DNA from: Cellulosimicrobium protaetiae
GTDB taxonomy: Bacteria; Actinomycetota; Actinomycetes; Actinomycetales; Cellulomonadaceae
DNA: 64,000 nt
Direction: 5' to 3'
Assembly: GCF_009708005.2 (NCBI RefSeq)
Contig: NZ_CP052757.1
Coordinates: forward strand, 1,054,001 to 1,118,000
Part shown: one piece after another, positions 3,978 to 59,743 of the stretch
How positions within the stretch are numbered: the stretch's first letter is position 1
Layout of the letters: each line of letters begins with the position of its first letter
Translations under genes and position numbers: made by a program
Notes under the pieces: model-generated
The model's database searches: none
What the model saw: only the letters and a program-made list of their open reading frames with translations
Told to the model about the DNA's origin: nothing

Positions 3978-4077
3978 CGAGGTAGAACCGTGGTCGCGCG
4001 AGGTAGAACCCTGGTCCCACCAGGGTTCTACCTCGCGGGACCAGGGTTCGACCTCGGCAGACCGGGGTCTCCTTCGG
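3978..4077. repeat. 21-bp phased repeat, locus I (inverted arrays)
   Basis: Two forward units of consensus CGAGGTAGAACCSTGGTC start at 3978 and 3999. Three reverse units start at 4018, 4039 and 4060, the last one degenerate. All same-strand neighbours are exactly 21 bp apart. The innermost opposed units form a perfect 19-bp stem (3997-4015 with 4019-4037) with a 3-nt CCC loop. The locus lies between the converging genes ending at 3953 and 4101, so it could act as a bidirectional terminator. Four further loci of the same family occur in the window. Confidence 0.9.
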
Positions 4078-4100
4078 CACCGACGGGCGTGTTCGGGGGA

Positions 4101-5345
4101 TCAGGTCGAGGCGGAGGCGCGGGCCTGGACGCCGCGGCGGACGGGTCCGAGGGTGAACAGCAGGGTGAGGAGCGCGGTGAGGGCGAGGAGCGCGAAGCCG
4201 AGGCCGTAGGTGCCCTCGAGCTGGTAGACGGCACCCATGAGCAGCGGCGGGATGAAGCCGCCGAGGCCGCCGGCCGCGCCCACCAGCCCGGTGACGGCGC
4301 CGACCTTCTCGACCGGCGCGACCTTGGCGACGAGCGCGAACGTCGCGCCCGACGACGCGCCGAGCGCGGCGGCGAGACCGAGGAACGCGATGGTGCCGAC
4401 GGGCACGAGCGACGGCTGGAACGCGACGACCGCCGCGAGCGCCGTCACGACGGCGAAGCACGCGACCGACACGGGGACGCCGCCGAACCGGTCGGACAGC
4501 GCCCCGCCGACAGGCCGCATGACGACGGCGAGCACGACGAACCCCGCGGTGCGGGCGGCGGCGTCGGAGGCGGTGAGGTCGTAGGCGTTGACGAGGAACG
4601 TGGGCAGGTAGACGGAGAACGCGACGAACCCGCCGAAGCCGACGGCGTAGAGCCACGAGAGCTGGAGGGTCGCGGGCAGGCGGAACGTGGCCCACGTGCG
4701 GGACCAGAAGCCGCCGGCGGGGGCGGTCGCGCGGCCGGGCGGGACGCGCAGCAGGAGCCACGCCACGACGGCGAACACGGCGAGGACGGCGGCGACGAGG
4801 AGGAACGGCGCGGCGTCGCCCCACGCGTCGCGGATGCGGACCGTCGTGAACGCGGAGATCGCGGTGCCGCCCATGCCCATGCCGAAGATCCCGATGGCGG
4901 TGCCACGGCGGGCGGGCGGGTACCAGGCGTTGACGAACGGGACGCCGACGGCGAACGCGGTGCCGCCGAGGCCGAGGAAGAAGCCGCCGACGAGCAACGC
5001 GACGAAGCTGTCCGCGACGAGCCCGACGAAGAGCACGGGCAGGATCGTCAGCGCGCTGACCAGGGGGAACATGACGCGTGCGCCGTACCGGTCGGTCAGC
5101 GCGCCCACGGGGATGCGCCCGAGGGACCCGACGACGACGGGGACGGCGACGAGGACGGAGACCTGCACGTCCGTGAGGTCGTAGAGCTGCCCGTACGCCG
5201 CGCCCAGCGGGCTGATGAGCGCCCACGCCCAGAAATTTACGGCGAACCCGATCGTCGCGAGGGCGAGCATGAGGGTCGGGGATGCGGACGGGGACGTCGT
5301 CGTCGGGGCGGGGCCGGTGGTCCCGCTCGCGTCCTGCTGCGCCAT
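4101..5345 (-). CDS. MFS transporter, nitrate/nitrite (NarK-like) type
   Basis: A 414-residue inner-membrane major facilitator with about 12 hydrophobic spans. It carries the nitrate/nitrite porter-like signature GVPFVNAWYPPARRG and a glycine-rich GIFGMGMGGTAIS segment in TM5, plus the loop motif GALTDRYGARVMF. The start was set at 5345 (MAQQDASG) because AGGAG lies 7 nt upstream; an in-frame ATG at 5381 lacks a site. It probably exchanges or imports nitrate/nitrite. No nitrate reductase gene is in view, so the substrate remains inferred. Confidence 0.8.
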   Translation of the reverse strand: MAQQDASGTTGPAPTTTSPSASPTLMLALATIGFAVNFWAWALISPLGAAYGQLYDLTDVQVSVLVAVPVVVGSLGRIPVGALTDRYGARVMFPLVSALTILPVLFVGLVADSFVALLVGGFFLGLGGTAFAVGVPFVNAWYPPARRGTAIGIFGMGMGGTAISAFTTVRIRDAWGDAAPFLLVAAVLAVFAVVAWLLLRVPPGRATAPAGGFWSRTWATFRLPATLQLSWLYAVGFGGFVAFSVYLPTFLVNAYDLTASDAAARTAGFVVLAVVMRPVGGALSDRFGGVPVSVACFAVVTALAAVVAFQPSLVPVGTIAFLGLAAALGASSGATFALVAKVAPVEKVGAVTGLVGAAGGLGGFIPPLLMGAVYQLEGTYGLGFALLALTALLTLLFTLGPVRRGVQARASAST

Positions 5346-5461
5346 GGCGACTCCTGGTGGGAGGTGCCCGTCGCCGGGCACGGGAGGTCGTTGCGTCGAG
5401 CGACTCCACGCTAACGACGCTCGTCGCGCCGCGCGCGGCGAACCCCCCGTACCGTGGGGGC

Positions 5462-6166
5462 GTGCTCGACTGGCTCTTCGGGGGCGTGGCCCTGCTCAAC
5501 GTGTATGCGCTCGCCCTCGTGGTGCTGCGCGCCCCGCTGTACCGCACGCGCCTGTACCGGCCGATGCTGCTCAACATCGGGCTGTCGATCGCGCCGGTGA
5601 TCGTCCTGGGACTGGTCGTCGTCGTCGACGCGGTGCTCATCGCGGGCGGGGCGCCGCCGTGGGCGATCCTCACGTGCGCGGTCCTCGGGTTCGGCGTCTG
5701 GCTCCTGCTCCTGCCGAACGCGGGGTACCTCGTCACGGAGCTCAACTACAGCCACCGCCAGGAGGGCGAGGACGTCCCGCTCTGGTACGACATCGTCGCG
5801 GTGCTCACGCTCGCGATGTCGGGCGTCATGAACACGCTCGTGAACGTGTTCCTCGCCCAGGCGCTGCTCGCGCTCGTGCTCTACCCGAACGACGACGCGC
5901 CGTTCCGCCGCCCGGTCTCGTGGATCGCCGTCCTGGTCGTGCTCGCTCTGGTGTCGGTCGGGATCTACCTCGGCCGGTACGTGCGCTTCAACAGCTGGGA
6001 CCTGGCCCACCCCGTGCAGTTCGTGCGCAAGCTCGCGCGCCACTTCCGCGCCCGTGGCGCCGTCCGGGACGCGCTGCTGTTCGTCCTGCTGCACACGTTG
6101 TTCTTCGCGTTCATGTACCTCATCGTCATGGGGCCGGTCACCGCGCTGCTCGTCCGCGGGGCCTGA
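5462..6166 (+). CDS. DUF1361 domain-containing membrane protein
   Basis: A 234-residue polytopic membrane protein with about six hydrophobic spans. It contains the DUF1361 hallmarks LLLPNAGYLVTEL, WYDI...GVMNT and RYVRFNSWDL. The GTG at 5462 was chosen because it precedes the first membrane span and lies about 10 nt after a TACCGT -10-like box, suggesting a leaderless or near-leaderless transcript. The gene is divergent from the NarK-like transporter. DUF1361 has no established function. Confidence 0.72.
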   Translation: MLDWLFGGVALLNVYALALVVLRAPLYRTRLYRPMLLNIGLSIAPVIVLGLVVVVDAVLIAGGAPPWAILTCAVLGFGVWLLLLPNAGYLVTELNYSHRQEGEDVPLWYDIVAVLTLAMSGVMNTLVNVFLAQALLALVLYPNDDAPFRRPVSWIAVLVVLALVSVGIYLGRYVRFNSWDLAHPVQFVRKLARHFRARGAVRDALLFVLLHTLFFAFMYLIVMGPVTALLVRGA

Positions 6167-6190
6167 CGCCGGGTCGGCGGTCCCCGTAGG

Positions 6191-6898
6191 ATGCCCGCCG
6201 TGACGTCGACCGCGCCGAGGGCCGCCCGCAGCGTCCCCCTGCTGCGCGCCGTCGTCGGCACGTGGCCGCGCCGCATCGCGCTGGGGGTCGTGCTCGGGCT
6301 CGTCGTCGGCACGACGGCGGCCGGCGGGTTCGCGCAGCACGTCGCCGCCGACGCGGGGCCGACCCGCGCCGCCGCGGGCGAGCCGGTCCCGACGGGCCCG
6401 TTCGACCTCACGGTGCGCTCGTGGTCCGTCACGGACACCGTGCAGGTCTCCTCGCTCGAGGACTCCGGCGCCGATGCGTGGCTCGTCGTGGTCGTCGGCG
6501 CGCTCGACACGGACCGGGAGCCGCGCCGTCTGGACCGTACCGCCGTGACGCTCCCGGACGAGCTGCCGGGCGGCCTGGCTCTGGCGGGCGACGCGGAGCC
6601 GGACCGCCCGGACCCGACGCTGCTCGTGCGCGACGCCTCGGTCTACCCCGTGCTCCAGCCGGGCCTGCCCGAGGACGTCGCGCTGCTGTGGCCGGTGACG
6701 GTCCCGGAGGGCGGCGCCACGTCCGCCGCCCCGGCCGAGCCGCTCACCGTCACCCTCCCGATGTTCCGCTACCGGGACATGACGGTCGGAGGCGGGCGCC
6801 GCTGGGCCGAGACGGGTGCCGTGGTGCTCGTGGACGCCCCGCCCGGGGACGTCCCGCCGGAGATCGTGGACCCGCCCGAGGACGAGGAGGCGTGGTGA
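6191..6898 (+). CDS. Membrane-anchored protein of unknown function (cluster gene 1)
   Basis: A 235-residue protein. A positively charged N-terminus leads into one hydrophobic span (about residues 30-50, LGVVLGLVVGTTAAGGFAQ), followed by an extracytoplasmic region of about 185 residues rich in beta-type sequence and acidic at the C-terminus. The next gene overlaps it by 4 bp (GTGA), and the third overlaps in turn, so the three form one transcriptional unit. All three share the plan of a single N-terminal anchor plus an exported domain. I do not recognise the family; this could be an envelope accessory complex. Confidence 0.65.
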   Translation: MPAVTSTAPRAARSVPLLRAVVGTWPRRIALGVVLGLVVGTTAAGGFAQHVAADAGPTRAAAGEPVPTGPFDLTVRSWSVTDTVQVSSLEDSGADAWLVVVVGALDTDREPRRLDRTAVTLPDELPGGLALAGDAEPDRPDPTLLVRDASVYPVLQPGLPEDVALLWPVTVPEGGATSAAPAEPLTVTLPMFRYRDMTVGGGRRWAETGAVVLVDAPPGDVPPEIVDPPEDEEAW

Positions 6899-9478: not shown

Positions 9479-9551
9479 GCGCGCCAGGGTACCGGGGCGG
9501 GCGTGCCGGGCGCCGCCGGTCCACGAGCCCTGCGGCTGCGGTTGGCGGTGT

Positions 9552-10151: not shown

Positions 10152-10175
10152 GGCTGCCAGTATGGCAACCTCGGT

Positions 10176-10192
10176 ACTACAACGCACGTAGT
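10176..10192. promoter_or_regulatory. Candidate TetR operator
   Basis: Inverted repeat ACTAC-N7-GTAGT in the 89-bp region between the divergent TetR gene and the FAD monooxygenase gene. Its central position fits joint control of both promoters. The arms are short, so this is a candidate only. Confidence 0.45.
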
Positions 10193-15312: not shown

Positions 15313-15496
15313 CGGTCCTTCCCCTCCTGCGGTCGTCGGCCGGGGCTCCCGGTCCGGTCGTCACGACCCTCCCGCGGGGGCGTACCCCCGGGCATCGGGG
15401 ACCGGCCCGGACCCTTCCCTGGTCGCCGCAGGGCCGCTCTCAGGGTTCTCTCAGGGGGATTCCCGAGGGGCGGCCCGGTGTAGGCTCGACGTGAAC

Positions 15497-15580
15497 GACA
15501 GGGGAGCTCCTGGAGGAGCTGAGAGTGCGGACCACCGCAGACCCTCGAACCTGACCCGGTTAGCACCGGTGGAGGAAGTC
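15497..15580 (+). promoter_or_regulatory. TPP riboswitch (THI element)
   Basis: The segment carries the conserved THI-box blocks in order: a GGGGAGC-type 5' strand, GCTGAGAGT, ACCCTCGAACCTGACCCGGTTAG, and a final GGAGGAAGTC that closes P1 by pairing with the 5' GAC. It lies about 95 bp upstream of thiB, after a TAGGCT -10-like box at 15481-15486. Thiamine pyrophosphate binding normally reduces expression of the downstream genes, by hiding the ribosome-binding site or by termination. Its presence is the best evidence that the downstream transporter carries thiamine or a precursor. Confidence 0.93.
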
Positions 15581-15676
15581 GGGAATCTCGATCACCTGCT
15601 CGTGCGGTCGTCCGCGCTCGTCGCAGCGTCGGTCGCGCGGGCCGGTGGACCCCTCCTGAACGTCCTGGGAGGACAC

Positions 15677-16777
15677 ATGCAACGCACGACCGCCCGCACC
15701 CGCCGGGCCCGGTCCCTCGTCACCGGCGCGGGGACGACCCTCGCCCTCCTCGCGCTCGCCGCGTGCAGCGGCGGCGACGACGCGACGTCAGGCTCGGGGG
15801 GCGACGACGCGTCGGGCACCGGCGACACCGTCACCCTCGTGACGCACGACTCCTTCGCCGTGAGCGACGAGGTCCTCGCGGCGTTCGAGGAGGAGAGCGG
15901 GCTCACCGTCGAGCAGGTCGCGCCCGGCGACGGCGGCGCGCTCGTCAACCAGCTGATCCTCACGAAGGACTCGCCGCTGGGCGACGTCGTGTTCGGGATC
16001 GACAACACGTTCGCGTCCCGCGCGATCGACGAGGGCGTGCTCGCGCCCTACGTGCCGGAGGGCCTGTCCGACTCGGCGGCCTCGTACGCCGTCGGCGACG
16101 GCGACGAGCTCACGGCGGTCGACCTCGGCGACGTCTGCGTCAACGTCGACCACGCGTGGTTCGCCGACGCCGGGATCCCGGAGCCCGTCTCGCTCGAGGA
16201 CCTCGCGAAGCCGGAGTACGAGGACCTCCTCGTCGTGACCAACCCCGCGACCTCGTCGCCGGGTCTCGCGTTCCTCCTCGCGACCGTCGGGGCGTTCGGC
16301 GAGGACGGCTGGGAGGACTACTGGGCCGACCTGCGCGCCAACGGCGTGAAGGTCGTCGACGGCTGGTCTGACGCCTACTACGTCGACTTCTCCGGCTCCG
16401 AGGGCGCGGGGCCGCGCCCGCTCGTGCTGTCGTACTCGACGTCGCCCGCGTTCACGCTCACCGAGGACGGCTCCGCGTCCACGACCGGGGCTCTGCTCGA
16501 CACGTGCTTCCGCCAGGTCGAGTACGCGGGCGTGCTCGCGAACGCGAAGAACCCCGAGGGCGCGCAGCAGCTCGTCGACTTCCTCGTGAGCGAGGCGTTC
16601 CAGGCCGACGTGCCCGGCCAGATGTACATGTACCCCGCCGACGACTCCGTCGCGCTCCCCGACGGCTGGGCCGAGTTCGCGCCGCTCGCCGACGAGCCCT
16701 TCGAGGTCGCGCCCGCCGACATCTCGGCGCACCGCGACGAGTGGATCAAGGCATGGACGGCGACGGTCGTCGACTGA
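15677..16777 (+). CDS. thiB: Thiamine ABC transporter substrate-binding lipoprotein
   Basis: A 366-residue exported lipoprotein. The signal peptide (MQRTTARTRRARS... LLALAAC) ends at a lipobox cysteine near residue 30, followed by a Gly/Ser/Asp linker and a periplasmic-binding fold of the ThiB/iron(III) class (VTHDSFAVSDEVLAAFEEESG, then DVVFGIDNTFASRA). The WADLRANGVKVVDGWSDAYY segment fits ThiB. The TPP riboswitch directly upstream supports thiamine, TPP or a precursor as ligand. It is followed by a repeat hairpin and then the permease and ATPase genes. Confidence 0.88.
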   Translation: MQRTTARTRRARSLVTGAGTTLALLALAACSGGDDATSGSGGDDASGTGDTVTLVTHDSFAVSDEVLAAFEEESGLTVEQVAPGDGGALVNQLILTKDSPLGDVVFGIDNTFASRAIDEGVLAPYVPEGLSDSAASYAVGDGDELTAVDLGDVCVNVDHAWFADAGIPEPVSLEDLAKPEYEDLLVVTNPATSSPGLAFLLATVGAFGEDGWEDYWADLRANGVKVVDGWSDAYYVDFSGSEGAGPRPLVLSYSTSPAFTLTEDGSASTTGALLDTCFRQVEYAGVLANAKNPEGAQQLVDFLVSEAFQADVPGQMYMYPADDSVALPDGWAEFAPLADEPFEVAPADISAHRDEWIKAWTATVVD

Positions 16778-16793: not shown

Positions 16794-16892
16794 GACCACG
16801 GTTCTACCTCGCGAGATAGAACCGTGGTCACGCGAGGTAGAGCCCTGGTCCCGCGAGGTAGAACCGTGGTCGGCCGAGGGAGAACCGTGGTG
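16794..16892. repeat. 21-bp phased repeat, locus II (inside the thiamine operon)
   Basis: One reverse unit (16794-16811) abuts four forward units starting at 16812, 16833, 16854 and 16875, spaced exactly 21 bp. The first two units form a 17-bp perfect stem (16789-16805 with 16818-16834) around a 12-nt loop. Unlike the other loci, the reverse unit comes first. It lies between thiB and thiP, and the last unit supplies the likely ribosome-binding site and GTG start of thiP. Confidence 0.9.
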
Positions 16893-18602
16893 AGGGCGCG
16901 GGCACCCTGGCGGGGTCGCCTCGGGCGCGGGGCGGCCTGGGGGCTGGCGGCGGCGGTGCCGCTGGTGTTCCTCGGGGTGTTCTTCGCGTGGCCGGTGGTC
17001 ACGCTCGTGGCGCGCGGGTTCGTCGGGGACGACGGCGGCCTGGACCTGTCCGGGTTCGCGGAGGTCTTCTCCCAGCCGCGGACGTGGCGCATCCTCGGGC
17101 TCACGCTGTGGCAGGCCGTGCTCGGCACGGCGTTCTCCGTGCTGCTCGGCGTGCCCGGTGCGTACGTGCTGTACCGGTGCCGGTTCCCCGGGCGGCGGGT
17201 CGTGCGCGCGCTCGTCACGGTGCCGTTCGTGCTCCCGACCGTCGTCGTCGGCGTCGCCTTCCGGTCGCTGCTCGTGCAGGGCGGCCCGCTCGGGTTCCTG
17301 AGGCTCGACGAGACGTTCGCGGCGATCGTCGTCGCGCTCGTGTTCTTCAACTACTCCGTGGTGGTGCGTACGGTCGGCGGGCTGTGGGAGCACCTCGACC
17401 CCCGCGCCGAGCAGGCCGCGCGGGCGCTGGGCGCGACGCCGTGGCGCGCGTTCCGCACCGTCACGCTCCCCGCGCTGACGCCGGCGATAGCGAGCGCCGC
17501 GTCGATCGTCTTCCTCTTCTGCGCGACGGCGTTCGGCGTCGTCCTCGTCCTGGGCGGCATCCGCTACGGGACGATCGAGACGGAGATCTGGATCCAGACC
17601 ACCCAGTTCCTCGACCTGCGCACCGCCGCCGTGCTGTCGGTGGTCCAGCTCGTCGTCGTGGCCGCGGCCCTCATGGTCGCGAACCGCACGCGGGCCAAGC
17701 GCGAGCGCGCGCTGAACCTCTCGTCGTCGGCCTCGTCGGCCCACCCGCTGCGCCTGTGGCGCGACGGCCGCCCGACCGGCGACCTCGCGCCCGCTGCGCT
17801 CACCGCGGTCGTGGTCGTCGTGCTCGTCGGGCTCCCGCTCGGCACGCTCGTCGTGCGGTCGTTCCGCGTCCCGGGCGGCGGCTGGGGGCTCGACAACTAC
17901 GCGAACCTCGGCACGACGGGAGGGCGCAACGCGCTGTCCGTCACCGTGTGGGAGGCGGCGGGCAACTCGCTACGGACGGCGGCGCTCGCGACCGTGCTCG
18001 CCGTCGTGATCGGCGGCCTCGTCGCGCTCGTCGTGTCCCGGCGCCCGCGCTCGCGCGGCGGGCGGCGCGCGATCTCCGTGCTGGACTCGGTGTTCATGCT
18101 CCCGCTCGGGGTCTCCGCGGTGACGGTCGGCTTCGGATTCCTCCTCACGCTCGACCGGCCGCTCGGGCTCGACGTCGACCTGCGCACGTCCGGGTTGCTC
18201 GTGCCGATCGCGCAGGCGGTCGTCGCGATCCCGCTCGTCGTGCGCACGGTCCTGCCGACGCTGCGCGCGATCGACCCGCGCCTGCGCGAGGCCGCCGCGA
18301 CCCTCGGCGCCGCCCCCGGGCGCGTGTTCCGCACCGTCGACGGGCCGATCGCCGCGCGGTCGCTCGGGCTCGCCGTCGGGTTCGCGTTCGCCGTCTCGCT
18401 CGGGGAGTTCGGCGCGACGTCGTTCCTCGCCCGCCCCGACAGCGCCACGCTGCCCGTCGTGATCTTCCGGCTCATCGGGCGTCCCGGGGCCGAGAACTAC
18501 GGCATGGCGCTCGCGGCGAGCGTCGTGCTCGCGCTGCTCACCGCGGCCGTCATGCTGCTCGCCGAGCGGTTGCGCGGCGACCGACCCGGAGGAGAGTTCT
18601 GA
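16887..18602 (+). CDS. thiP: Thiamine ABC transporter permease (fused two-domain)
   Basis: A 571-residue permease with two binding-protein-dependent transport domains in one chain, as in ThiP/FbpB. The first EAA-like loop is EQAARALGATPWRAF (about residue 180), the second REAAATLGAAPGRVF (about 470), with about 12 spans. The start is uncertain: GTG codons at 16887 and 16890 follow GAGGGAGA, all of it repeat sequence. An in-frame GTG at 16824 would translate the repeat array into an N-terminal RGRxLV heptad and was rejected. The TGATG overlap with thiQ indicates coupling. Confidence 0.87.
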   Translation: MVRARAPWRGRLGRGAAWGLAAAVPLVFLGVFFAWPVVTLVARGFVGDDGGLDLSGFAEVFSQPRTWRILGLTLWQAVLGTAFSVLLGVPGAYVLYRCRFPGRRVVRALVTVPFVLPTVVVGVAFRSLLVQGGPLGFLRLDETFAAIVVALVFFNYSVVVRTVGGLWEHLDPRAEQAARALGATPWRAFRTVTLPALTPAIASAASIVFLFCATAFGVVLVLGGIRYGTIETEIWIQTTQFLDLRTAAVLSVVQLVVVAAALMVANRTRAKRERALNLSSSASSAHPLRLWRDGRPTGDLAPAALTAVVVVVLVGLPLGTLVVRSFRVPGGGWGLDNYANLGTTGGRNALSVTVWEAAGNSLRTAALATVLAVVIGGLVALVVSRRPRSRGGRRAISVLDSVFMLPLGVSAVTVGFGFLLTLDRPLGLDVDLRTSGLLVPIAQAVVAIPLVVRTVLPTLRAIDPRLREAAATLGAAPGRVFRTVDGPIAARSLGLAVGFAFAVSLGEFGATSFLARPDSATLPVVIFRLIGRPGAENYGMALAASVVLALLTAAVMLLAERLRGDRPGGEF

Positions 18603-42356: not shown

Positions 42357-43801
42357 GCGCCGGGCACCCGGCGCCGTCGGGCAGCGGGCCGACGGCGGGC
42401 GGCGGGCTGCTCGCCCGCGTCCGGGACCGGCGGCTCGTCGGCACGCCCTCGCGCGCACGGACGATCGCCTACGGCGCGTCCGCGTTCCCCTCGAACCTGC
42501 TGATGCAGACGTTCTCCGCGTTCGTCGTCTACTTCTACGTCGACCACCTCGGGGTCCGCGCCGGCTGGGTCGCCGGCGCGATGGTCGCGCACGGCATCCT
42601 CAACGCCCTGCTCAACCCGCTCGTCGGCGCGGCCTCCGACCGTCGCCGGACTCGCTGGGGCCGGCGCGTCCCCTGGATCGTGCTCGGGATCGTCCCGCTC
42701 GTCGTCGCGTTCGCGCTCGTGTGGATGCCGCCCGCCGTCGGCCCGACCGGGCTCGTCGTGTGGTTCCTCGTCGTCGTCGCGCTGTTCGACGTCGCGTACG
42801 TCGTGGTCGCGCTCAACGTCTCGGCGCTCTTCCCCGAGATCTTCCGCACGACGGCCGAGCGCGCTCGCGGCAACACGCCGCGCCAGATCTTCGGCCTCGT
42901 CGGGATGATCCTCGGCACCGCGGGCGCGCCGCTGCTGTACGGCACGCTCGGCTGGACCTGGATGGCGCTGCTGCTCGCGGTCGTGAGCCTCGCGTTCTTC
43001 GTGTGGTCGCTCGCCGGGATGGTCGAGCGCCCCGTCGACGTCGAGGCGGTGCGCTCGCGCGAGGCCGCCGTCGGGCTGGGAGACCAGCTCCGCTACACCT
43101 TCGCCAACCGCGCGTTCGTCACCTACGTGCTCGGGTCGCTGCTGCTGCAGAGCACGACGGCGATCGTGCTCGCCGCCATCCCGTTCTACGTGCGGTACAC
43201 CGTCGGAGGGGCGGAGGCCGACGCGACGTTCCTCCTCGCGCCGATCTTCGTCGCCGCGATCCCGTCGATCGTCGGGTGGTCGTGGGTCGTGCGGAAGATC
43301 GGCCCGCGCTCCGCGATGCTGTGGGTCGTCACGGTGTACGGGCTCGCGACGTGTCTCTACCTGATCCCGTCCACCGTGCTCGGCGCCGCGCTCGCGGGCC
43401 TCGCCGTGGGCGTGGGTGTCGCCGGCCTCATGCAGGTGCTCGAGGTCGCGCTCGCGCAGGTCATCGACGACGACGAGCGTCGCACCGGCCTGCGCCGCGA
43501 GGGCATGTACTTCGGCGCCAACGGGTTCGTCGTGCGCGGGTCCGTCATCGTGCAGGCCGTGCTCGTCGCGGGCGTGCTGTCGGCGAGCGGGTACGTCGAG
43601 GGCGCGGGCGACGTCGCGCAGCCGGACACCGTCGCGACCGGCGTGCGCCTCCTCCTCGGCGGCGTCCCCGTGGTCCTCGCCGCGCTCGCGTTCGTCTGCT
43701 TCTGGTTCTACCCCCTCCGCGGTCGCGACCCCGACGACACCGACGCCGCCCTCGCCGAGGCCGACGCCTCCCCGACGGCGGCAGACCCCCTCCCGAGGTA
43801 G
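42353..43801 (+). CDS. GPH-family sugar:cation symporter (MFS)
   Basis: A 482-residue inner-membrane transporter with about 12 spans. The GPH/MelB-like features are the N-terminal AFPSNLLMQTFSAFVVYFYVDHLG, the loop PLVGAASDRRRTRWGRRVPW, and the conserved ALNVSALFPEI region. It probably imports a disaccharide or chitooligosaccharide for the co-encoded deacetylase. The coding frame ends CCG-AGG-TAG: the Arg codon and stop codon are the first bases of a 21-bp repeat unit. Confidence 0.85.
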   Translation: MSAGHPAPSGSGPTAGGGLLARVRDRRLVGTPSRARTIAYGASAFPSNLLMQTFSAFVVYFYVDHLGVRAGWVAGAMVAHGILNALLNPLVGAASDRRRTRWGRRVPWIVLGIVPLVVAFALVWMPPAVGPTGLVVWFLVVVALFDVAYVVVALNVSALFPEIFRTTAERARGNTPRQIFGLVGMILGTAGAPLLYGTLGWTWMALLLAVVSLAFFVWSLAGMVERPVDVEAVRSREAAVGLGDQLRYTFANRAFVTYVLGSLLLQSTTAIVLAAIPFYVRYTVGGAEADATFLLAPIFVAAIPSIVGWSWVVRKIGPRSAMLWVVTVYGLATCLYLIPSTVLGAALAGLAVGVGVAGLMQVLEVALAQVIDDDERRTGLRREGMYFGANGFVVRGSVIVQAVLVAGVLSASGYVEGAGDVAQPDTVATGVRLLLGGVPVVLAALAFVCFWFYPLRGRDPDDTDAALAEADASPTAADPLPR

Positions 43802-43916
43802 AACCCCGGTCGCGCGAGAGAGAACCCTGGTAGCCCGAGGTAGAACCGTGGTCGCGCGATATAGAACCGTGGTCGGCCGAGTGAGAACCGTGGTCGGTCG
43901 AAGTAGAACCCTGGTC
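43794..43916 (+). repeat. 21-bp phased repeat, locus III, forward array
   Basis: Six forward units start at 43794, 43815, 43836, 43857, 43878 and 43899, exactly 21 bp apart. The 18-bp core (CGAGGTAGAACCSTGGTC) varies most at positions 4-6; the 3-bp spacers vary freely. The first unit supplies the stop codon of the sugar transporter gene. It is the left arm of a composite module that continues to 44399. Confidence 0.93.
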
Positions 43917-43951
43917 TTTGAGCCCGACGGCGTGTGGCTGGGTTGGGTGGT

Positions 43952-44044
43952 CGGGGTGGGTGGTGGTGCCGCGTCTACCATCCGCCGCTCGTTCCTCGCG
44001 GCTCCCGCCGGGCCCGCCACGACGCGGCACCACCACCCATCCCG
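43952..44044. other. Module A central stem-loop
   Basis: A 24-bp stem with one G-T wobble (43952-43975 with 44021-44044) closes a 45-nt loop (43976-44020). The loop matches the second copy at 59310-59354 in 44 of 45 positions. No coding potential is evident. It may be a structured RNA or a DNA recognition structure. Confidence 0.8.
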
Positions 44045-44141
44045 CCCGGCTTCGCCCCGCCCTGGTCTGTGCGCACCCGGACCACCTGCCCGCGCGGTTC
44101 CGTCTCGTACGCGCCGCGCCGTCGCGCCGCGTCTTCGTGTC

Positions 44142-44195
44142 GAGCAGGTGGTCCGGGCGCGTCCTGGTCGCCTGACGCGCCCGGATCTCCTGCTC
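44142..44195. other. Module A second stem-loop
   Basis: Outer stem GAGCAGG/CCTGCTC (44142-44148 with 44189-44195) encloses an inner perfect 11-bp stem (44153-44163 with 44174-44184) and a 10-nt loop. The same 54-nt layout recurs at 59447-59500. A further CCTGCTCGAC copy at 44211-44220 offers an alternative partner for the 5' strand. Confidence 0.7.
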
Positions 44196-44318
44196 GGCCA
44201 ACCAGGATCGCCTGCTCGACCTGCCGGGTCACGTGATCGGCCGAGAACCGGCGATGGCGGCAGCCCCGAGCACCGAGACCACCCCTACCGCGGACCCGAC
44301 CCCGCGGGCCTGAGACCT

Positions 44319-44399
44319 GACCACGGTTCTACCTCGCGCGACCACGGTTCTACCTCGACCGACCGCGGTTCTACCTCGGCGGAGTGGGGTTCACTCTCG
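44319..44399 (-). repeat. 21-bp phased repeat, locus III, reverse array
   Basis: Four reverse units start at 44319, 44340, 44361 and 44382, exactly 21 bp apart; the last is degenerate. They overlap the 3' end of the minus-strand MarR gene, whose stop TAG and final Arg codon come from the unit at 44361-44378. Confidence 0.9.
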
Positions 44400-45019: not shown

Positions 45020-45967
45020 ATGCCCGACTACGGCCACGACCTGCGCTTCGGGTCCTTCGTCACACCCACCGCCGCGGCACCGCAGCAGGCGGTCGCGCTC
45101 GCGCAGCTCTCGGAGGAGGTGGGCCTCGACCTCGTGACGTTCCAGGACCATCCGTACCAGGCGGCCTTCCTCGACACGTGGACGCTGATGTCCTGGGTCG
45201 CCGCGCGCACCGAGCGCATCCGGATCGCGGGCAACGTGCTCAACCTGCCGCTGCGCCCACCGGCCGTGCTCGCGCGCGCCGTGGCGAGCCTCGACCGGCT
45301 CTCGGGCGGTCGCGTCGAGCTGGGGCTCGGCGCGGGCGGGTTCTGGGACCCGATCGTCGCGATGGGCGGCGAGCGACTGACGCCGGGGGAGTCGGTCGAC
45401 GCGCTCTCCGAGGGCATCGACGTCGTCCGCGGGCTGTGGGACACGTCGACCCGTGACCGCCTCGTCGCGGGCGGGGCGCACCACCACGTCGACGGTGCCA
45501 AGCGCGGGCCCGCACCCGCGCACGACGTCGAGATCTGGGTCGGCGCGCTCAAGCCCCGCATGCTGCGCCTCGTCGGGGCGAAGGCCGACGGCTGGCTCCC
45601 GTCGCTCGCGTACCTCCAGAGCTTCGAGGCGCTCGCGAAGGGCAACGCGACGATCGACGCCGCCGCCGAGGACGCGGGCCGCGACCCGCGCGCCGTCCGG
45701 CGCCTGCTCAACGTCGGTGGCCGGTTCACGGCGGACGGTGGCGCCGGGTTCCTCCAGGGCTCGCCCAGCCAGTGGGCCGAGCAGGTCGCGGAGGTGACGC
45801 TCGAGCACGGCGTCTCCACGTGGATCGTCGCGGGCGACGACCCGACGACCCTGGCCGTCGTCGGGCAGGAGGTCGCCCCCGCCGCGCGCGAGCTCGTCAC
45901 GGCGGAGCGCGGCACGGCCGACGTCCAAGCGACGGGAGCCGTCACGGACGGCGAGGCCCGCGCATGA
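45020..45967 (+). CDS. LLM class flavin/F420-dependent oxidoreductase
   Basis: A 315-residue luciferase-like TIM-barrel enzyme. Typical blocks are LAQLSEEVGLDLVTFQDHPYQ, RIRIAGNVLNLPLRPPAVLARAVASLD, GRVELGLGAGGFWD and VGALKPRMLRLVGAKADGWLPS. Reduced FMN or F420 is the likely cofactor. It is a close paralogue of the N-terminal half of the next protein (TFQDHPYQ and GRVxLxLGAGxFWD shared). CGAGGAG precedes the ATG; the next gene overlaps its stop by 4 bp. Confidence 0.87.
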   Translation: MPDYGHDLRFGSFVTPTAAAPQQAVALAQLSEEVGLDLVTFQDHPYQAAFLDTWTLMSWVAARTERIRIAGNVLNLPLRPPAVLARAVASLDRLSGGRVELGLGAGGFWDPIVAMGGERLTPGESVDALSEGIDVVRGLWDTSTRDRLVAGGAHHHVDGAKRGPAPAHDVEIWVGALKPRMLRLVGAKADGWLPSLAYLQSFEALAKGNATIDAAAEDAGRDPRAVRRLLNVGGRFTADGGAGFLQGSPSQWAEQVAEVTLEHGVSTWIVAGDDPTTLAVVGQEVAPAARELVTAERGTADVQATGAVTDGEARA

Positions 45968-48300
45968 CCGACTACGGCCACCCGCTCCGGTTCGGCACGT
46001 TCGTCACGCCGTCGGCGCAGGACCCCGAGACGACGGTCGGGCTCGCCCGCCTCGCCGAGGACCTCGGCTACGACCTCGTGACGTTCCAGGACCACCCGTA
46101 CCAGCCGCGCTTCCTCGACACGTGGACGCTGCTGTCGTACGTCGCGTCCGCGACGGAGCGCATCCACGTCGCGCCCGACGTCGTCAACGTCCCCATGCGC
46201 CAGCCCGCCGTGCTCGCGCGCGCGGCGGCGAGCCTCGACCTGCTGTCCGACGGGCGCGTCGACCTCGCGCTCGGCGCCGGCGCGTTCTGGGACGCCATGG
46301 TCTCGATGGGCGTCGAGCGCCTCACCCCGGGCGAGTCCGTCGACGCGCTCGCCGAGGCGGTCGACGTGATCCGGGCGATCTGGGGCGAGGACGGCGACGG
46401 CGAGCTGTTCGTCCCCGGCCGCCACCACCGGCTCGACGGCGCGACCGCCGGACCGGCGACCACGCGCCGCATCCCGCTGTGGCTGGGCGCGCTCGGCCCG
46501 CGCATGCTGCGTCTCGTCGGCGAGAAGGCCGACGGCTGGCTCCCGTCCCTGGGCCGCGTCGGCCTGGACGGGCTGCGCGCGGGGAACGCGCGCATCGACG
46601 AGGCCGCGACCGCCGTCGGGCGCGACGCGCGCGAGGTCACGCGCCTGCTCAACGTGTCGGGTACGTTCGATGCCGCCCCCGCGGCGTCCGGCCTCGGGGG
46701 CGCCCCGGATCTCGTCGGCCCGCCCGAGGCCTGGGTCGAGCGGCTCCTGCCGCTCGTCCTGGAGGAGGGCGTCTCGACGCTCATCCTCGCGACAGACGAC
46801 GAGCGCACCACCCGCCGGTTCGCGGAGGACGTCGCGCCCGCGCTGCGGGACGCCGTCGCCGCGGGACGTGCGGCGAGCGGGACGGACACGTCCCGCGTCG
46901 TGCCCCTCGCGGTCCGGGCCGCGCGCCGCGACGGCATCGCCTACGGCGACGTCCCCGCCTCCCTCGCGGAGCGAGCGGTCGAGCCGGGCGACGCCGCGTA
47001 CGGGGGCGTGCGCTCGAACTACCTGCGCGGCGGCTCGCCGGGGCTCGTGCTCCGCCCGCGCGACACCGCGGAGGTCGTCGAGGCGCTCGCGTTCGCGCGC
47101 GCCCAGCCGATCACGCGGACCGTGCCGCTGTCCGTCCGCTCGGGCGGCCACGGCATCAGCGGGCGCTCGACGAACGACGGCGGGATCGTCCTCGACCTGG
47201 GCGCGCTCGACGCGATCGAGGTGCTCGACGACGACGCGCGCCTCGTGCGCGTCGGCCCGGGTGCGCGCTGGGGCGGGGTCGCGGCGGCGCTCGCTCCCCG
47301 GGGCTGGGCGATCACGTCGGGCGACTCCGGCGGCGTCGGGGTGGGCGGTCTCGCGACGGCGGGCGGCATCGGCTTCCTCGGCCGGGCGCACGGTCTGACG
47401 ATCGACCACGTGCACGCGGTCGAGGTCGTCCTCGCGGACGGCTCGGTCGTGCGCGCGAGCGCGGACGAGAACCCGGACCTGTTCTGGGCGGTGCGCGGCG
47501 CGGGGTCGCAGGTCGGCATCGTGACGTCGTTCGAGCTCGTCGCGGACGAGGTGTCGGCGGTCGGGTTCGCGCAGATGGTGCATGATGCGTCCGACCTCGC
47601 CGGGTTCCTCGAGCGCTGGGGCGCGACCGTCGAGACGTCGCCGCGAGACACGACGAGCTTCCTCATCGTGGGTCGCCCGCGGCCGGGCCAGCCGGTCGTC
47701 GCGCAGTCCATGACGATGGTCGACTCCGCCGACCCGGACACCGTCCTTGCGCGGCTCCAGCCGTTCGCGGCGATCTCGCCGCTGCTCGCGCAGGCGACGG
47801 CGCAGATCGTGCCGTACGACGCCGTCGTCTCCGCCCCCGCCCCGGGCCCGCACGGAGGCCAGGGCGAGCCCGTCTCGCGGTCCGGCCTGCTGGAGCACCT
47901 CACGCCCGAGGCGTCCGCCCGGCTCGCGGGGCTCGTCGCGAGCGGCGACACGTACTTCTTCCAGATCCGCTCGACGGGGGGAGCGGCGTCGGACGTCCCG
48001 GTCGAGGCCACGGCGTACGCGCACCGCTCGGCGAACTTCTCCGTCGTGGCGATGGGGGCGAGCCGCTCACGGCTCGACGCGCGCTGGGACGCGCTGGCGG
48101 ACGTGTTCGAGGGCATGTACCTGAGCTTCGACACGGACCGCCGCCCCGAGCGCGTGTCGGACGCGTTCCCGCCCGCGACCTTGGAGCGGCTGCGGGAGGT
48201 CAAGCGCCGGGTCGACCCGACGAACGTCTTCCGTGACAACCTGCCGATCCTCGGGCCGGACCCGGTGGACGAGCCCGTGGAGGCCGTCCCCGCGAGGTAG
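45964..48300 (+). CDS. Fusion of LLM oxidoreductase and BBE-type FAD oxidase
   Basis: A 778-residue two-enzyme fusion. Residues 1 to about 295 form a complete LLM domain, a paralogue of the preceding gene product. After a short linker, residues about 325-770 form a vanillyl-alcohol-oxidase/BBE-like flavoprotein: FAD-binding PCMH region with SVRSGGHGISGRSTNDGGIV (His for covalent flavin attachment), GVGVGGLATAGGIGFLGRAHG, and a C-terminal BBE motif VDPTNVFRDNLPI. The second Cys of bicovalent oxidases is absent. Open reading is continuous with no frameshift. The frame ends GCG-AGG-TAG in a repeat unit. It probably performs two sequential oxidations on one substrate. Confidence 0.85.
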   Translation: MTDYGHPLRFGTFVTPSAQDPETTVGLARLAEDLGYDLVTFQDHPYQPRFLDTWTLLSYVASATERIHVAPDVVNVPMRQPAVLARAAASLDLLSDGRVDLALGAGAFWDAMVSMGVERLTPGESVDALAEAVDVIRAIWGEDGDGELFVPGRHHRLDGATAGPATTRRIPLWLGALGPRMLRLVGEKADGWLPSLGRVGLDGLRAGNARIDEAATAVGRDAREVTRLLNVSGTFDAAPAASGLGGAPDLVGPPEAWVERLLPLVLEEGVSTLILATDDERTTRRFAEDVAPALRDAVAAGRAASGTDTSRVVPLAVRAARRDGIAYGDVPASLAERAVEPGDAAYGGVRSNYLRGGSPGLVLRPRDTAEVVEALAFARAQPITRTVPLSVRSGGHGISGRSTNDGGIVLDLGALDAIEVLDDDARLVRVGPGARWGGVAAALAPRGWAITSGDSGGVGVGGLATAGGIGFLGRAHGLTIDHVHAVEVVLADGSVVRASADENPDLFWAVRGAGSQVGIVTSFELVADEVSAVGFAQMVHDASDLAGFLERWGATVETSPRDTTSFLIVGRPRPGQPVVAQSMTMVDSADPDTVLARLQPFAAISPLLAQATAQIVPYDAVVSAPAPGPHGGQGEPVSRSGLLEHLTPEASARLAGLVASGDTYFFQIRSTGGAASDVPVEATAYAHRSANFSVVAMGASRSRLDARWDALADVFEGMYLSFDTDRRPERVSDAFPPATLERLREVKRRVDPTNVFRDNLPILGPDPVDEPVEAVPAR

Positions 48301-48388
48301 AGCCCTGCCGAGGTAGACCCCTGGTAGCGCGAGGTAGAACCCTGGTCAGGACCACGGTTCTACCTCGCGCTACCGGACCTCTACCTCG
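48293..48388. repeat. 21-bp phased repeat, locus IV (inverted arrays)
   Basis: Forward units at 48293 (shortened, 16 bp to the next), 48309 and 48330; reverse units at 48350 and 48371, 21 bp apart. The inner units form a 24-bp stem with one mismatch and a 4-nt loop (48323-48346 with 48351-48374, approximate ends). The locus lies between genes converging from both sides and supplies the stop codons of both: TAG in the first unit for the fusion oxidase and a TAG within the reverse array for the BenE gene. Confidence 0.9.
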
Positions 48389-49605
48389 CGGGGCGGGGTG
48401 CCCGTCGGCGTCCCGGTCTCGCTCGCCGGGTCGGGTGCCCGACGGCGCACGGTGAGGACCGCGTGGACGGTCAGCCCGGCGAGGATCGCCCAGAACGCGG
48501 CGGCGATGCCGGCCACGACGACGCCGCTCGCGGCGACGAGGAACGTCACGACGGCTGCCTCGCGCCCGCGCGGCTCGGCGACCGCACCGGCGACGGCGGC
48601 GCCGAGCGTGCCGACGAGCGCGAGCCCGGCGGCCGCCTCGACGAGGCCCGCGGGCGCGGCGGCGACGAGCGCGGCGAGCCCGGCCGACCCGACGGCGAGC
48701 ACGAGGTATGCCCACCCGGCGGTGTGCGCGGCGAGCCAGCGGCGCCGGGCGTCGGGGTGGGCCTCGGGCCCCGCGGCGAGCGCGGCGGAGATCGCCGCGA
48801 GGTTGATCGCGTGGCCGCCCGCGGTCGCGCCGGCGAGCGTCGCGAGCCCGGTGACGGTCATGGTCTCGCGCCATGGCACGCGGTACCCGAACGACGCCAT
48901 GACGGCGACGCCGGGCACGTTCTGCGACGCCATCGTCACGACGTAGAGCGGGACGGCGAGCCCGACCACGGCCTGCCACGAGAGCGTGGGGGCGGTGAGG
49001 TCGAGGCGGGGGACGGCGTCGGACCACGCGAGCGTGCCGCCGTGCACGGCCTCGTACCCGACGATCGCGAGCGTCACCGCGAGCGCCGCGGGCGCCGCCC
49101 AGCGCGGCGCGACGCGCAGGAGCACGAGCCACACGAGAACCACCGGCGCGACGAGCAGCGGCGTCGCGACGACCGCGCGCACCGGTGCGAGGCACAGCGT
49201 GAGGAGCACGCCGGCGAGCATCGCCTGCGCGATCGGGGTCGGGATCGCGGCGACGAGGTCGCCGAGTCGCGGCCAGAGCGCGGTGAGCAGCACGAGGCCG
49301 CCGACGACGCAGAACGCCCCGACCGCCGCGGGCCACCCGCCCGCGACGGCGCCCGTGCTCACGAGCAGCGCGGCGCCGGGCGTGGACCACGCGAGCGTGA
49401 GCGGGGTGCGGTGGCGGGTGGTGAGCCAGAAGATGCCGACGGCCTGCGTGACGCAGAGCGCGAGGAGCCCGGACGCGGCCTGGTCGGGCGTGGCGCCGAC
49501 GGCGCGCAGCCCGGCGAGCACGACGGCGAACGAGCTCGTGAAGCCGACGAGGGCGGTCACGAGCCCGGCGAGGACGGGGCGCAGGCGGTCCGAGGCGGGG
49601 TCCAT
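48370..49605 (-). CDS. benE: BenE family benzoate:H+ symporter
   Basis: A 411-residue membrane transporter with about 12 hydrophobic spans and family motifs LVGFTSSFAVVLAG (TM1), LAWSTPGAALL and VPLYVVTMASQNVPGVAVM, plus ATAGGHAINLAAISAA in a later helix. BenE-type carriers import benzoate. The C-terminus REVEVR is read from repeat sequence at locus IV. The XRE-cupin regulator gene is divergent and probably controls it. No benzoate catabolic genes are visible here. Confidence 0.87.
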   Translation of the reverse strand: MDPASDRLRPVLAGLVTALVGFTSSFAVVLAGLRAVGATPDQAASGLLALCVTQAVGIFWLTTRHRTPLTLAWSTPGAALLVSTGAVAGGWPAAVGAFCVVGGLVLLTALWPRLGDLVAAIPTPIAQAMLAGVLLTLCLAPVRAVVATPLLVAPVVLVWLVLLRVAPRWAAPAALAVTLAIVGYEAVHGGTLAWSDAVPRLDLTAPTLSWQAVVGLAVPLYVVTMASQNVPGVAVMASFGYRVPWRETMTVTGLATLAGATAGGHAINLAAISAALAAGPEAHPDARRRWLAAHTAGWAYLVLAVGSAGLAALVAAAPAGLVEAAAGLALVGTLGAAVAGAVAEPRGREAAVVTFLVAASGVVVAGIAAAFWAILAGLTVHAVLTVRRRAPDPASETGTPTGTPPREVEVR

Positions 49606-57161: not shown

Positions 57162-57341
57162 GGGCGGTAAGGCTACGCACCCGGGCGCCGCGGGGGAAAG
57201 GTGTCCGCCGGTGGTGGCGCCGACCCCGGGGTTGCGGGCGAGGCGGTCGCCGAACCCGGGATGCCGCCGGGCTCGGCGCGAGACGTGCCGACGACCCCGG
57301 GGTCGTCGGCCGTGAGCGGGGTCTGAAGGCTGTGGTGGTTC

Positions 57342-57761: not shown

Positions 57762-57862
57762 CTGACCTCCTCAGGGTCTGTCGGCGGTGTTCTGCTGACA
57801 TAACGTCGGAGCGCTGCCCAGGATTCCACCGCGGTCGGGTGGTAGCGCAGAACCCGGTCCGC

Positions 57863-57874
57863 CGAGGTAGAACC
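57863..57874 (+). repeat. 21-bp phased repeat, locus V, left part interrupted by IS30
   Basis: The first 12 bases of a forward unit (CGAGGTAGAACC) stop at the IS30 boundary. The rest of the unit continues at 59181 after a duplicated AACC. A degenerate unit (AGAACCCGGTC at 57849-57859) may precede it. Confidence 0.8.
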
Positions 57875-59176
57875 TTGGTCTCAACCGGTCATCGCAACAT
57901 CGGGTTGGTCAGGTTGGTGAGAGTAGCGCGGCGAGCTTCTCGGCGGGGGTGGCCCAGCCGAGGGTTTGGCGGGGTCGGGTGTTGAGGGCGTCTGCGACGT
58001 CTTCGAGGTCGGATGCGGGGTGCACGGACAGGTCGGTGCCTTTGGGGTAGTACTGGCGTAGGAGCCCGTTGGTGTTCTCGTTGCTGCCGCGCTGCCAGGG
58101 TGCGTGCGGGTCGCAGAAGAACAGGTCGATGGGATCGGTGAATCCGATGTCGATGCCGACGTTCGGTGTCATCTCTCGGCCCCGGTCCCAGGTGAGGGTG
58201 CGTCGTAGGTGCTCGGGCAGGGCCCGGATCTTGGTCCGCATCGCTTCTGCGACCTGCTCGGCGGCGTAGCCGTGCGGCAGGTGCAGCAGCATCACGAACC
58301 GGGTGCTGCGCTCGACCAGGGTCCCGATCGCGGACTTGTTGCCGGCACCGATGATCAGATCGCCCTCCCAGTGGCCCGGCACGGCGCGGTCGGCGATCTC
58401 GGCCGGGCGTTCGCTGATCAGGACATCGGGCGGTAGCAGGCGTTGCCCCTGACGCTTGGTGCGGGCCTGGGCCCGAGGGCGGCGGCGGGCGCGTCCGGTC
58501 CGCAGCGCGGTGTGCAGCTCGGCGCGCAGCCCGCCACGGCCCTGGACATACAACGCCTGATAGATCGCCTCGTGACTGATCCGCATCGACTCATCATCGG
58601 GGAAGTCGACCGGGAGGCGGTTCGCGATCTGCTGCGGGCTCCACACCCGTGCGCGGCGGCTGTCCGGTCGCACGGTGCCGTCCAGCCGGTCGCAGACATA
58701 GCCCGCCAGGCGCGGGTCGAGCGCGAGCTTGCGCCGATCCTGTTTGGGACGCGCGGCCTGCCGGTCGCGGTGGGCCTGCGCGACCGAGGGCACATACCGA
58801 CCATCGCTCGCCCGCCGGCCCGGGTTGGTCAACTCACGCCAGATCGTCGAGCGTGGACGGCCCAGCCGCCGCCCGATCGCCGCGTACGAATGACCCTCGG
58901 CACGCAGCAACGCCATCCGCTCGCGTTCTTCGAACGACACGAACCGGCCCGTGGGCGCGGCGAGATCGATATCAGGCACCCCGCCAGACTCAGCGATCCA
59001 GGCCTGCACCGTGCGGGTCGACACGCCCACCCCCGCGGCCGCCGCGACCACAGGCACGCCATCGACGAACGCCCGCCAGAACTCCCGCCGCCACTGCCGC
59101 GGCACCGACACCCCACCACGCACCATCCGAAAACACCCCTCGAATCAGGATGTTGCGATGACCAGTTGAGACCGCC
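57875..59176 (-). mobile_element. IS30-family insertion sequence, 1302 bp
   Basis: Terminal inverted repeats pair 57877-57901 with 59149-59173 (24 of 25 positions). The flanking AACC at 57871-57874 and 59177-59180 fits a target duplication. Deleting the element with one AACC restores an intact repeat unit in exact 21-bp phase with its neighbours. The transposase is intact, so this may be a recent or active copy. Confidence 0.88.
57909..59126 (-). CDS. IS30 family transposase
   Basis: A 405-residue DDE transposase. The N-terminal helix-turn-helix regions (about 20-110; GVGVSTRTVQAWI and GHSYAAIGRRLGRPRSTIWRE) bind the ends. The catalytic triad is visible as Asp in GHWEGDLIIG (about 235), Asp in LTWDRGREM (about 290) and Glu in NENTNGLLRQYYPKG (about 335). 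Length and motifs match IS30 transposases, and the frame is uninterrupted. Confidence 0.95.
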   Translation of the reverse strand: MVRGGVSVPRQWRREFWRAFVDGVPVVAAAAGVGVSTRTVQAWIAESGGVPDIDLAAPTGRFVSFEERERMALLRAEGHSYAAIGRRLGRPRSTIWRELTNPGRRASDGRYVPSVAQAHRDRQAARPKQDRRKLALDPRLAGYVCDRLDGTVRPDSRRARVWSPQQIANRLPVDFPDDESMRISHEAIYQALYVQGRGGLRAELHTALRTGRARRRPRAQARTKRQGQRLLPPDVLISERPAEIADRAVPGHWEGDLIIGAGNKSAIGTLVERSTRFVMLLHLPHGYAAEQVAEAMRTKIRALPEHLRRTLTWDRGREMTPNVGIDIGFTDPIDLFFCDPHAPWQRGSNENTNGLLRQYYPKGTDLSVHPASDLEDVADALNTRPRQTLGWATPAEKLAALLSPT

Positions 59177-59249
59177 AACCCTGGTCTGCCGAGATAGAAC
59201 CGTGGTCGCGCGAGGTAGAACCGTGGTTGGCCGAGGTAGAGCCCTGGTT
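59177..59249 (+). repeat. 21-bp phased repeat, locus V, forward array continued
   Basis: The interrupted unit resumes at 59181; intact forward units start at 59190, 59211 and 59232, exactly 21 bp apart. Together with the left fragment this made at least four forward units before the IS30 insertion. Confidence 0.9.
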
Positions 59250-59283
59250 CTCGTGCCCGACGGCGGTCTGGTCGCCTTGGGTG

Positions 59284-59380
59284 GGCGGGGTGGGTGGTGG
59301 TGCCGCGTCTACCATCCGCCGCTCGTTCCTCGCGGCTCCCGCCAGGCCCGCCACGACGCGGCACCACCACCCACCCCGCC
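59284..59380. other. Module B central stem-loop
   Basis: A perfect 26-bp stem (59284-59309 with 59355-59380) closes a 45-nt loop that matches module A (43976-44020) at 44 of 45 positions. Both copies follow a forward repeat array and a short CCCGACGGC motif. No coding potential is evident. Confidence 0.85.
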
Positions 59381-59443
59381 CGGTATCGCCTCACCCTGGT
59401 CGCCGCTCACCTCAGGCGACCGCCCGCGCGCCGGGCCCCCGCC

Positions 59444-59503
59444 GTCGAGCAGGTGGTCTGGGCGCGTCGTGCTCTTCTGACGCACCCGGATCGCCTGCTC
59501 GAC
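59444..59503. other. Module B second stem-loop
   Basis: A 10-bp perfect outer stem (59444-59453 with 59494-59503) encloses an inner imperfect stem. The outer arms and the 54-nt core spacing match module A (44142-44195), while intervening sequence differs, so the pairing is better conserved than the sequence. Confidence 0.7.
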
Positions 59504-59654
59504 CTGCCAGGACCGCCTGGTCGACCATGTCAGGTGACTCGGTCGCGGTGAGCGGCCGACCGTCGTCGGACACGACGCGCCCATGGTGGGTGGCCCACCG
59601 GCGCCCGTACGAGCAAGACGGGCCCAGGCCCGACCCGCACTCCCGAGACCGAAC

Positions 59655-59743
59655 GACCGCTCTACCTGGCGTGACCACGGGTCTATCTCGCGTGACCACG
59701 GGTCTCTCTCGCGGGACCGCGGTTCTCTCTCGCGCGACCGGTG
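59655..59743 (-). repeat. 21-bp phased repeat, locus V, reverse array
   Basis: Reverse units start at 59673, 59694 and 59715, 21 bp apart, with a shortened unit at 59655 and a partial one at 59736. It closes module B 20 bp before the lacI-type gene. Confidence 0.82.

Follow-up and report, generated by a model that had tools for sequence, protein, structure and literature searches.

The window analysed here, 64,000 bp of Cellulosimicrobium protaetiae DNA (NZ_CP052757.1, forward-strand positions 1,054,001 to 1,118,000; G000:C1:1054001-1118000, inside a 4.78-Mb genome), contains a family of 18-bp units repeated in 21-bp steps at five intergenic loci. Arrays of these units lie close behind stop codons, and facing arrays between convergent genes can pair as a long near-perfect hairpin. 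We read the units, with a probability of about 0.5, as building blocks of 3'-end elements that resemble repetitive extragenic palindromes (REPs) and would serve as U-less terminators or exonuclease barriers. A transcript arriving from either side would fold into a hairpin without a U-run ('I-shaped'), at which transcription would end or be trimmed and 3'-to-5' exonucleases would halt. Between convergent genes such an element would form a two-way boundary, and in a thiamine-type ATP-binding cassette (ABC) operon of the window it would raise the message for the solute-binding protein over that for the permease. Spread and likeness within a genome would come from DNA-level copying (gene conversion, slippage or template switching) rather than from a REP-associated tyrosine transposase (RAYT); correction of palindromes at the DNA level would also account for the mirrored private-variant arms of one relative (G008) at locus 48293. 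A first-pass annotation had offered a REP-like element, an insulator, a nucleoid-protein site or a transcription boundary as roles; position, orientation, TAG donation and hairpins speak for the REP-like or boundary interpretation, and the functional role itself is predicted from sequence.

Regularly spaced units behind stop codons

The unit consensus from the weight matrix is CGA[GA][GA]TAGAACCSTGGTC. In the window, 28 places lie within three mismatches of CGAGGTAGAACCSTGGTC, all of them at the five loci (shuffles expect 0.06), and the matrix at 8 bits finds 31 units; the annotation's five loci stand and its figure of roughly 34 copies is slightly high. Across the whole genome we found 424 copies with at most two mismatches (219 + 205; reversed control, 0), and at the same threshold 242 tandem steps of exactly 21 bp (control, 0). 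Spacing, arrays and clusters were examined in an 844-kb sample made up of the window and 39 stretches of 20 kb, one of which (L217) was picked for known hits. The exact 21-bp step separates 122 of 129 same-strand neighbours lying no more than 120 bp apart, the other seven spacings being 16, 19, 22 (two), 41, 42 and 62 bp. Neither chance frequency, nor random spacing, nor confinement to one mobile element describes the family. The linkers between units are 3 bp long, most commonly GCG, ACG, GGC or CGC, and the only dyad inside the unit matrix is ACC-NN-GGT, with arms of 3 bp. GTAG occupies unit positions 5-8 (CGAGGTAG), among which and next to which positions 4-6 vary somewhat, and it is not terminal because CGAG precedes it. 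It is present in the unit consensus of 11 species, a result partly given beforehand by the search pattern, GAGGTAG. The third quarter of the chromosome (G000:C1, ~2.3-3.5 Mb) is poor in units, with 4 in 9 sampled stretches as against 36 in 9, 50 in 10 and 60 in 10 elsewhere.

Relative to genes, which were called with our own Markov caller rather than taken from an annotation, units are concentrated in convergent gaps. Of the convergent gaps, 15 of 124 hold units; for co-directional gaps the count is 11 of 449 and for divergent ones 2 of 123 (convergent 15/124 versus other gaps 13/572, Fisher p = 1.3e-5). When the evenly spaced sample is taken and at least two units are required, the counts are 9/109, 6/405 and 1/108, respectively (9/109 versus 7/513, p = 4e-4). 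Moreover, 31 of 37 arrays share the direction of the gene that precedes them, two of these genes being 6 kb off and two further arrays of the 39, in predicted open reading frames (ORFs), being set aside; without the window and L217 the count is 21 of 26. Units also contain 11 of 701 stop codons, always TAG, on the same strand and at the same offset, and thereby supply 11 of the 82 TAG stops. Within the window the units lie only between genes or at gene ends, as the annotation had it; among the 190 units of the sample, 25 have their midpoint in a predicted gene (12 isolated, 9 in two arrays and 4 over a gene end). The two arrays inside predicted ORFs, at L208:18124-18225 and L186:19220-19300, may be miscalls or true gene insertions.

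Composite elements and the A hairpin

In the sample, 39 arrays have at least two units, each with 2-7. Units in both orientations, which the annotation had described for every locus, are held by 19 clusters, of which 16 run + then -, 2 run - then + and 1 is mixed; in the predominant order the GTAG end points outward. A point missed at first reading is that opposed arrays enclose either almost nothing or a core. The 12 cores read, of 174-667 bp, are mosaics of hairpin modules in which A adjoins one array, B adjoins the other and C lies between, some cores having only one or two modules. The loci at 43794-44399 and 59177-59743 are such composites, with related 402-bp cores, and the RNA fold of composite 43780-44410 reaches -390.5 kcal/mol compared with -303.8 for 20 shuffles (z -10.7), the arrays forming the outer stem. 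Inner units are slightly nearer the consensus than outer ones (inner better in 25 of 39 arrays, outer in 11, ties in 3; p = 0.04), and across these 39 arrays any polarity of decay outward from the core is weak. We rejected a mobile cassette with an internal gene, as the 12 sampled cores share hairpin modules and not a gene, no gene search having been run.

Features of the window are as follows, with the strand where one is assigned.

3978..4077: array-only inverted element (++ --), in the convergent gap 3954-4100
16794..16892: a - + inverted pair, then + units; flanked by the solute-binding-protein gene 15677-16777 and the ABC permease gene 16956-18602
43794..43916, +: left array of 6 units; the TAG of its first unit (43799-43801) is the stop of the MFS gene 42353-43801
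43953..44043, +: A hairpin, a long stem with the conserved core (R1 match, 100.5 bits)
44140..44199: C hairpin of the composite core (core reading and fold)
44238..44317: partial B module (BLAST between cores; B fold)
44319..44378, -: right array of 3 units, with a degenerate fourth to ~44399; its outermost TAG ends the MarR-type gene 44371-44928 (-)
48293..48388: array-only inverted element; genes 45964-48300 (+) and 48370-49605 (-) both end within it
57863..57880, +: outer unit of locus 5, severed by an insertion sequence
57881..59176, -: insertion sequence, not part of the element, with terminal inverted repeats of ~21 bp and the rve-domain ORF 57909-58793
59177..59249, +: left array of composite 5, 3 units and a degenerate one
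59287..59377, +: A hairpin of composite 5 (R1 match, 105.9 bits)
59444..59505: C hairpin of composite 5
59652..59732, -: right array of composite 5 with 4 units, which follows the LacI-type gene 59763-60764 (-) at 30 bp

One of the five loci needs correcting: the fifth is a single array, interrupted at ~57881-59176 by an insertion sequence of the rve type, whose ORF scores 32.5 for rve against a cut-off of 32.6. At the second locus, a thiamine pyrophosphate (TPP) riboswitch at 15490-15594 stands ahead of the thiamine-type ABC operon, and the first intergenic gap of this operon holds the 16794 arrays. Within the unit, GAGG lies seven bases ahead of GTG, and at 16875-16900 a unit GTG may start the permease gene, which our caller starts at 16956; with a step of seven codons, this spacing might hint at a role in translation.

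The A hairpin has nearly invariant internal and apical loops, with the core TACCATCC / TCGTTCCTC / TCCCGCCAGRCCCRCCACG. Its stem is common to most copies of this genome and private to each locus in other genera. A single 123-nt query finds 59 matches in the genome of the window, the best at 97-99% identity. Among 20 copies from the genus, compensatory changes are found in 25 of 30 pairs and 88.8% of cells are paired, compared with 65.8% when shuffled. Among 41 copies from other genera, outside the model, 96.2% are paired versus 58.2% and 414 cells are changed on both sides; this alignment was fitted to the model and hence leans towards it, and two of its five measures are not above shuffles (both-side-changed pairs, 92/500; pair types, 126/500). 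Within the family, the R1 model is matched in 51 of 221 genomes, which represent 12 of 25 genera; the order sample has matches in 28 of 396 genomes, from 14 of 110 genera, and the phylum sample, at E up to 1e-5, in 1 of 396 genomes, namely the genome of the window, which is included in all three counts; stricter filters and the few candidates scored per genome make these many-genome counts lower bounds. One genome from another family of the order has three tandem A-type matches (L376:1347-1590).

The context of the hairpin in other genera was read for 72 of 183 hairpins, from the upper part of the list and from 20 of the 34 non-genus genomes with matches. Where the 5' gene is resolved, 55 of 64 hairpins follow a same-strand gene, the distance from its stop being 13-58 nt in 51 of these; the remainder comprise 6 antisense and 3 divergent hairpins, with 8 more lacking a resolved 5' gene. 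This count leaves out two weak or overlapping rows, and the G-U test described below leaves out three rows. In the full 74 rows, the two weak or overlapping ones included, runs of T within the following 12 nt reach a length of 3 in one row, 2 in 15 and no more than 1 in 58. No U-run therefore follows the A hairpins examined and a classical intrinsic terminator was rejected for them, as was a CRISPR (clustered regularly interspaced short palindromic repeats) for the arrays, whose 3-bp linkers leave no unique spacers of repeat length; the first-pass annotation had excluded both. Nor is the A hairpin a known RNA family at Rfam thresholds: Rfam finds the TPP riboswitch alone in the window, and its best match at five A-hairpin loci is a microRNA precursor (E 0.026; 32.9 bits, where the gathering score is 83). 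If confirmed as RNA, the A hairpin would be a new motif family.

Relatives and rival explanations

Of the 17 genomes of the genus, 10 have the tandem pattern, as against 0 of the other 204 family genomes searched. Among the matches listed, the named records with several units per stretch belong to Cellulosimicrobium and one Oerskovia, and those outside these two genera are mostly single matches to a 14-base pattern, likely due to chance. Copy number of the exact 15-bp unit pattern ranges from 0 to 108 across the 17 genomes. AGCC, and not AACC, is commonest in 7 of 11 unit-bearing species, G006 being mixed and G015 having TACC; the unit counts of other species are biased, many loci having been fetched by the GAACC pattern. 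The 21-bp step is retained despite other unit sequences, for example between 9 of 11 neighbours of G015 and 17 of 19 of G007, which fits phasing and also the growth of arrays by slippage. Several draft contigs of relatives (among them G006 C2, C3, C4, C7, C18 and C23; G002 too) have a unit in or next to their first few hundred bases, as though the elements break short-read assemblies.

We compared the five orthologous gaps in five relatives, with G008 at 3978 and G016 at 43794 unreadable and the left flank of locus 5 placed only in part in G004, G015 and G016. Arrays are retained, shortened or lost and cores are variable; at three of the five loci, as far as flanks are placeable, some species have the A-bearing core and others lack it. 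The gap of 3978 holds a composite with an A hairpin in G006, decayed units in G004 and none in G015 and G016. At 16794, arrays are also found in G004, G006 and G008, with none in G015 and G016, and the first hairpin folds in all four array-bearing genomes, most weakly in G008 (z -2.4). The 48293 gap has unit-like inverted repeats in six of six species, with differing unit sequences and in G016 one short arm on each side, and it folds above shuffles in all six (z -2.9 to -13.7; for G016, 1 of 200 shuffles ties or beats it); in G008 the two arms mirror each other in a private variant. In G008 the locus-5 gap carries another insert, longer than 1 kb and distinct from the rve-type sequence.

Selfish, non-autonomous mobile repeats, akin to miniature inverted-repeat transposable elements (MITEs) or REPs, could insert or be tolerated at gene ends and palindromes with an incidental effect on transcription. 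Such an origin is possible without being probable: it would suit the swing in copy number between species, the coming and going of the A-bearing core, the near-identical A hairpins at many loci and the insertions found in arrays. However, PF01797 (Y1 transposase, RAYT), the sole transposase family searched, is matched in 0 of 17 genus genomes (5 of 14 control genomes matched) and, in the genome of the window, at no E up to 10 (10 of 14 controls matched). Neither a clean empty site nor a target duplication was seen among the five loci, no systematic search having been made, and the occupation of 48293 and 16794 in 6/6 and 4/6 species despite differing units is unlike random insertion and loss. 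We consider it distinctly unlikely that the arrays are phased binding sites, with a protein on each 18-bp unit meeting one face of the DNA every two helical turns, as in a nucleoid, gyrase, insulator or transposase-binding array. The 21-bp step retained where the unit differs, a consensus that changes by species as expected of a changed factor preference, and an array-core-inverted-array plan resembling transposon ends are in line with such sites; yet 21 bp is also seven codons and may be a plain period of slippage copying, and the units are oriented relative to genes, which a simple DNA site does not require; nor did a candidate protein emerge, no search aimed at one having been made. Least probable of all, in our estimate, are functionless minisatellites or quasi-palindromes grown and corrected by slippage and template switching. 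A mutational by-product of this kind would explain the mirrored arms of G008 at 48293 and the slightly better inner units, but local slippage is unable to move a word between loci, and here one word recurs at hundreds of loci, keeps a sense orientation, has TAG at a single offset and favours convergent gaps.

The reading of the units as U-less hairpin ends draws further on hairpins of unrelated sequence. Among array-free gaps, a perfect hairpin (arm of at least 11, loop of at most 20) is present in 30 of the 74 convergent ones, compared with 48 of 264 between co-directional genes and 7 of 119 between divergent genes, and because perfect hairpins of unrelated sequence occupy the same niche, U-less hairpin ends would be the likeliest role. 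Several observations weigh against this role. Other hairpins occur in 3 of 12 gaps with arrays compared with 30 of 74 (p = 0.36), so that mutual exclusion of arrays and other hairpins is not significant. No units are found in 109 of 124 convergent gaps, 6 of 37 arrays are not preceded by a gene on their own strand, and one is found between divergent genes. In the A stems, A-C mismatches number 49 and G-U pairs 30 of 3186 cells (p = 0.04; in other genera alone, 38 and 24, p = 0.10). This excess is opposite to that expected from sense-RNA selection, which the test leaves unsupported, and a process acting on the DNA may be what keeps the arms near-perfect.

A broader proposal, which we find doubtful, is that the order has a 3'-end system of its own, in which a hairpin with a nearly invariant internal loop, 13-58 nt behind stops and on locus-private stems, would be read by a dedicated RNA- or single-stranded-DNA-binding factor or would be an active RNA. 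In Cellulosimicrobium it would be wrapped in genus-specific phased 21-bp GTAG units, whose sequence would shift by species together with their own reader.

Among the dispersed hairpins is a family of perfect palindromes of the form TGAGTGCATGRAATAGTCGC...GCGACTATTYCATGCACTCA in gene-end gaps, with 12 half-sites in 844 kb. Further dispersed families include one with GAGCACGACATG (12 occurrences) and one with CGAACCCGGGGT (10). The palindromes lie at the following positions.

L182:546-603
L191:17751-17809
L192:7381-7438
L206:18504-18560
L208:15712-15774
L212:376-438

Comparison with known systems

A search of titles and abstract openings found no description of the unit repeat or the A hairpin, which is not proof that they are unpublished. 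Dispersed intergenic repeats that touch stops, or form inverted pairs at gene ends, include the mycobacterial interspersed repetitive units (MIRUs) and the DNA-uptake-sequence terminators of Neisseria, and both differ from the present family in sequence, unit length and tandem plan. Transposase-binding arrays are found at the ends of Tn7 and Mu, elements marked by fixed outer termini and a target-site duplication. Compared with such ends, the arrays here vary in length from 2 to 7 units, with neither a clean empty site nor a duplication seen at the five loci in five relatives, no systematic duplication search having been made.

The closest likeness is to the GTAG class of REPs and bacterial interspersed mosaic elements (BIMEs). 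As described by Di Nocera et al. (2013), these share with our family the GTAG motif, a high copy number, a position behind genes in convergent and unidirectional gaps, GTAG pointing outward in the predominant opposed pairs, hairpins formed by opposed units, a tag that gives the TAG stop of flanking ORFs, and use as targets by insertion sequences (PMC3733652). They differ in that the REP stem is of 5-13 bp whereas the unit dyad is of 3 bp, the REP tag stands at the repeat end whereas GTAG is internal to the unit, and head-tail tandems are rare among REPs whereas 122 of 129 close same-strand neighbours here are direct tandems at 21 bp. Tagged REPs are there predominantly from Proteobacteria, the GTAG kind occurring together with RAYT transposases, and the main text does not contain 'Actinobacter' and mentions untagged REP-like sequences of M. 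tuberculosis (PMC3733652). With a 3-bp dyad per unit, direct tandems and no Y1 transposase in 17 genomes, membership of the REP/RAYT system was rejected: on its sequence characters the repeat resembles GTAG REPs in GTAG, TAG donation, gap types and outward pairs, yet is not classed among them. How such repeats spread and stay alike is a question raised by the dense presence of a REP-like family in an actinobacterial genus where the search for a Y1 transposase found none.

With the U-less (I-shaped) terminators described for GC-rich actinobacteria, the elements share a strong GC hairpin near the stop, the lack of a U-run (A hairpins) and, as predicted here, two-way ends; they differ in that the same words are here dispersed and arrayed. 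In Streptomyces, transcript ends without U-tracts and two-way ends are reported (PMC8269248). Hairpin terminators are reported to lie mostly within 80 bases of the stop (PMC8355165). A 3' structure is described as protecting malE, and malE-malF has, like the window at 16794, a hairpin between the solute-binding-protein and permease genes of an ABC operon, a likeness of position (PMC5927463). The A hairpin, supported by covariation, without an Rfam match and associated with the 3' ends of genes across several families of a single order, offers a way into the question of how transcripts are ended or protected in GC-rich bacteria that lack U-tracts.

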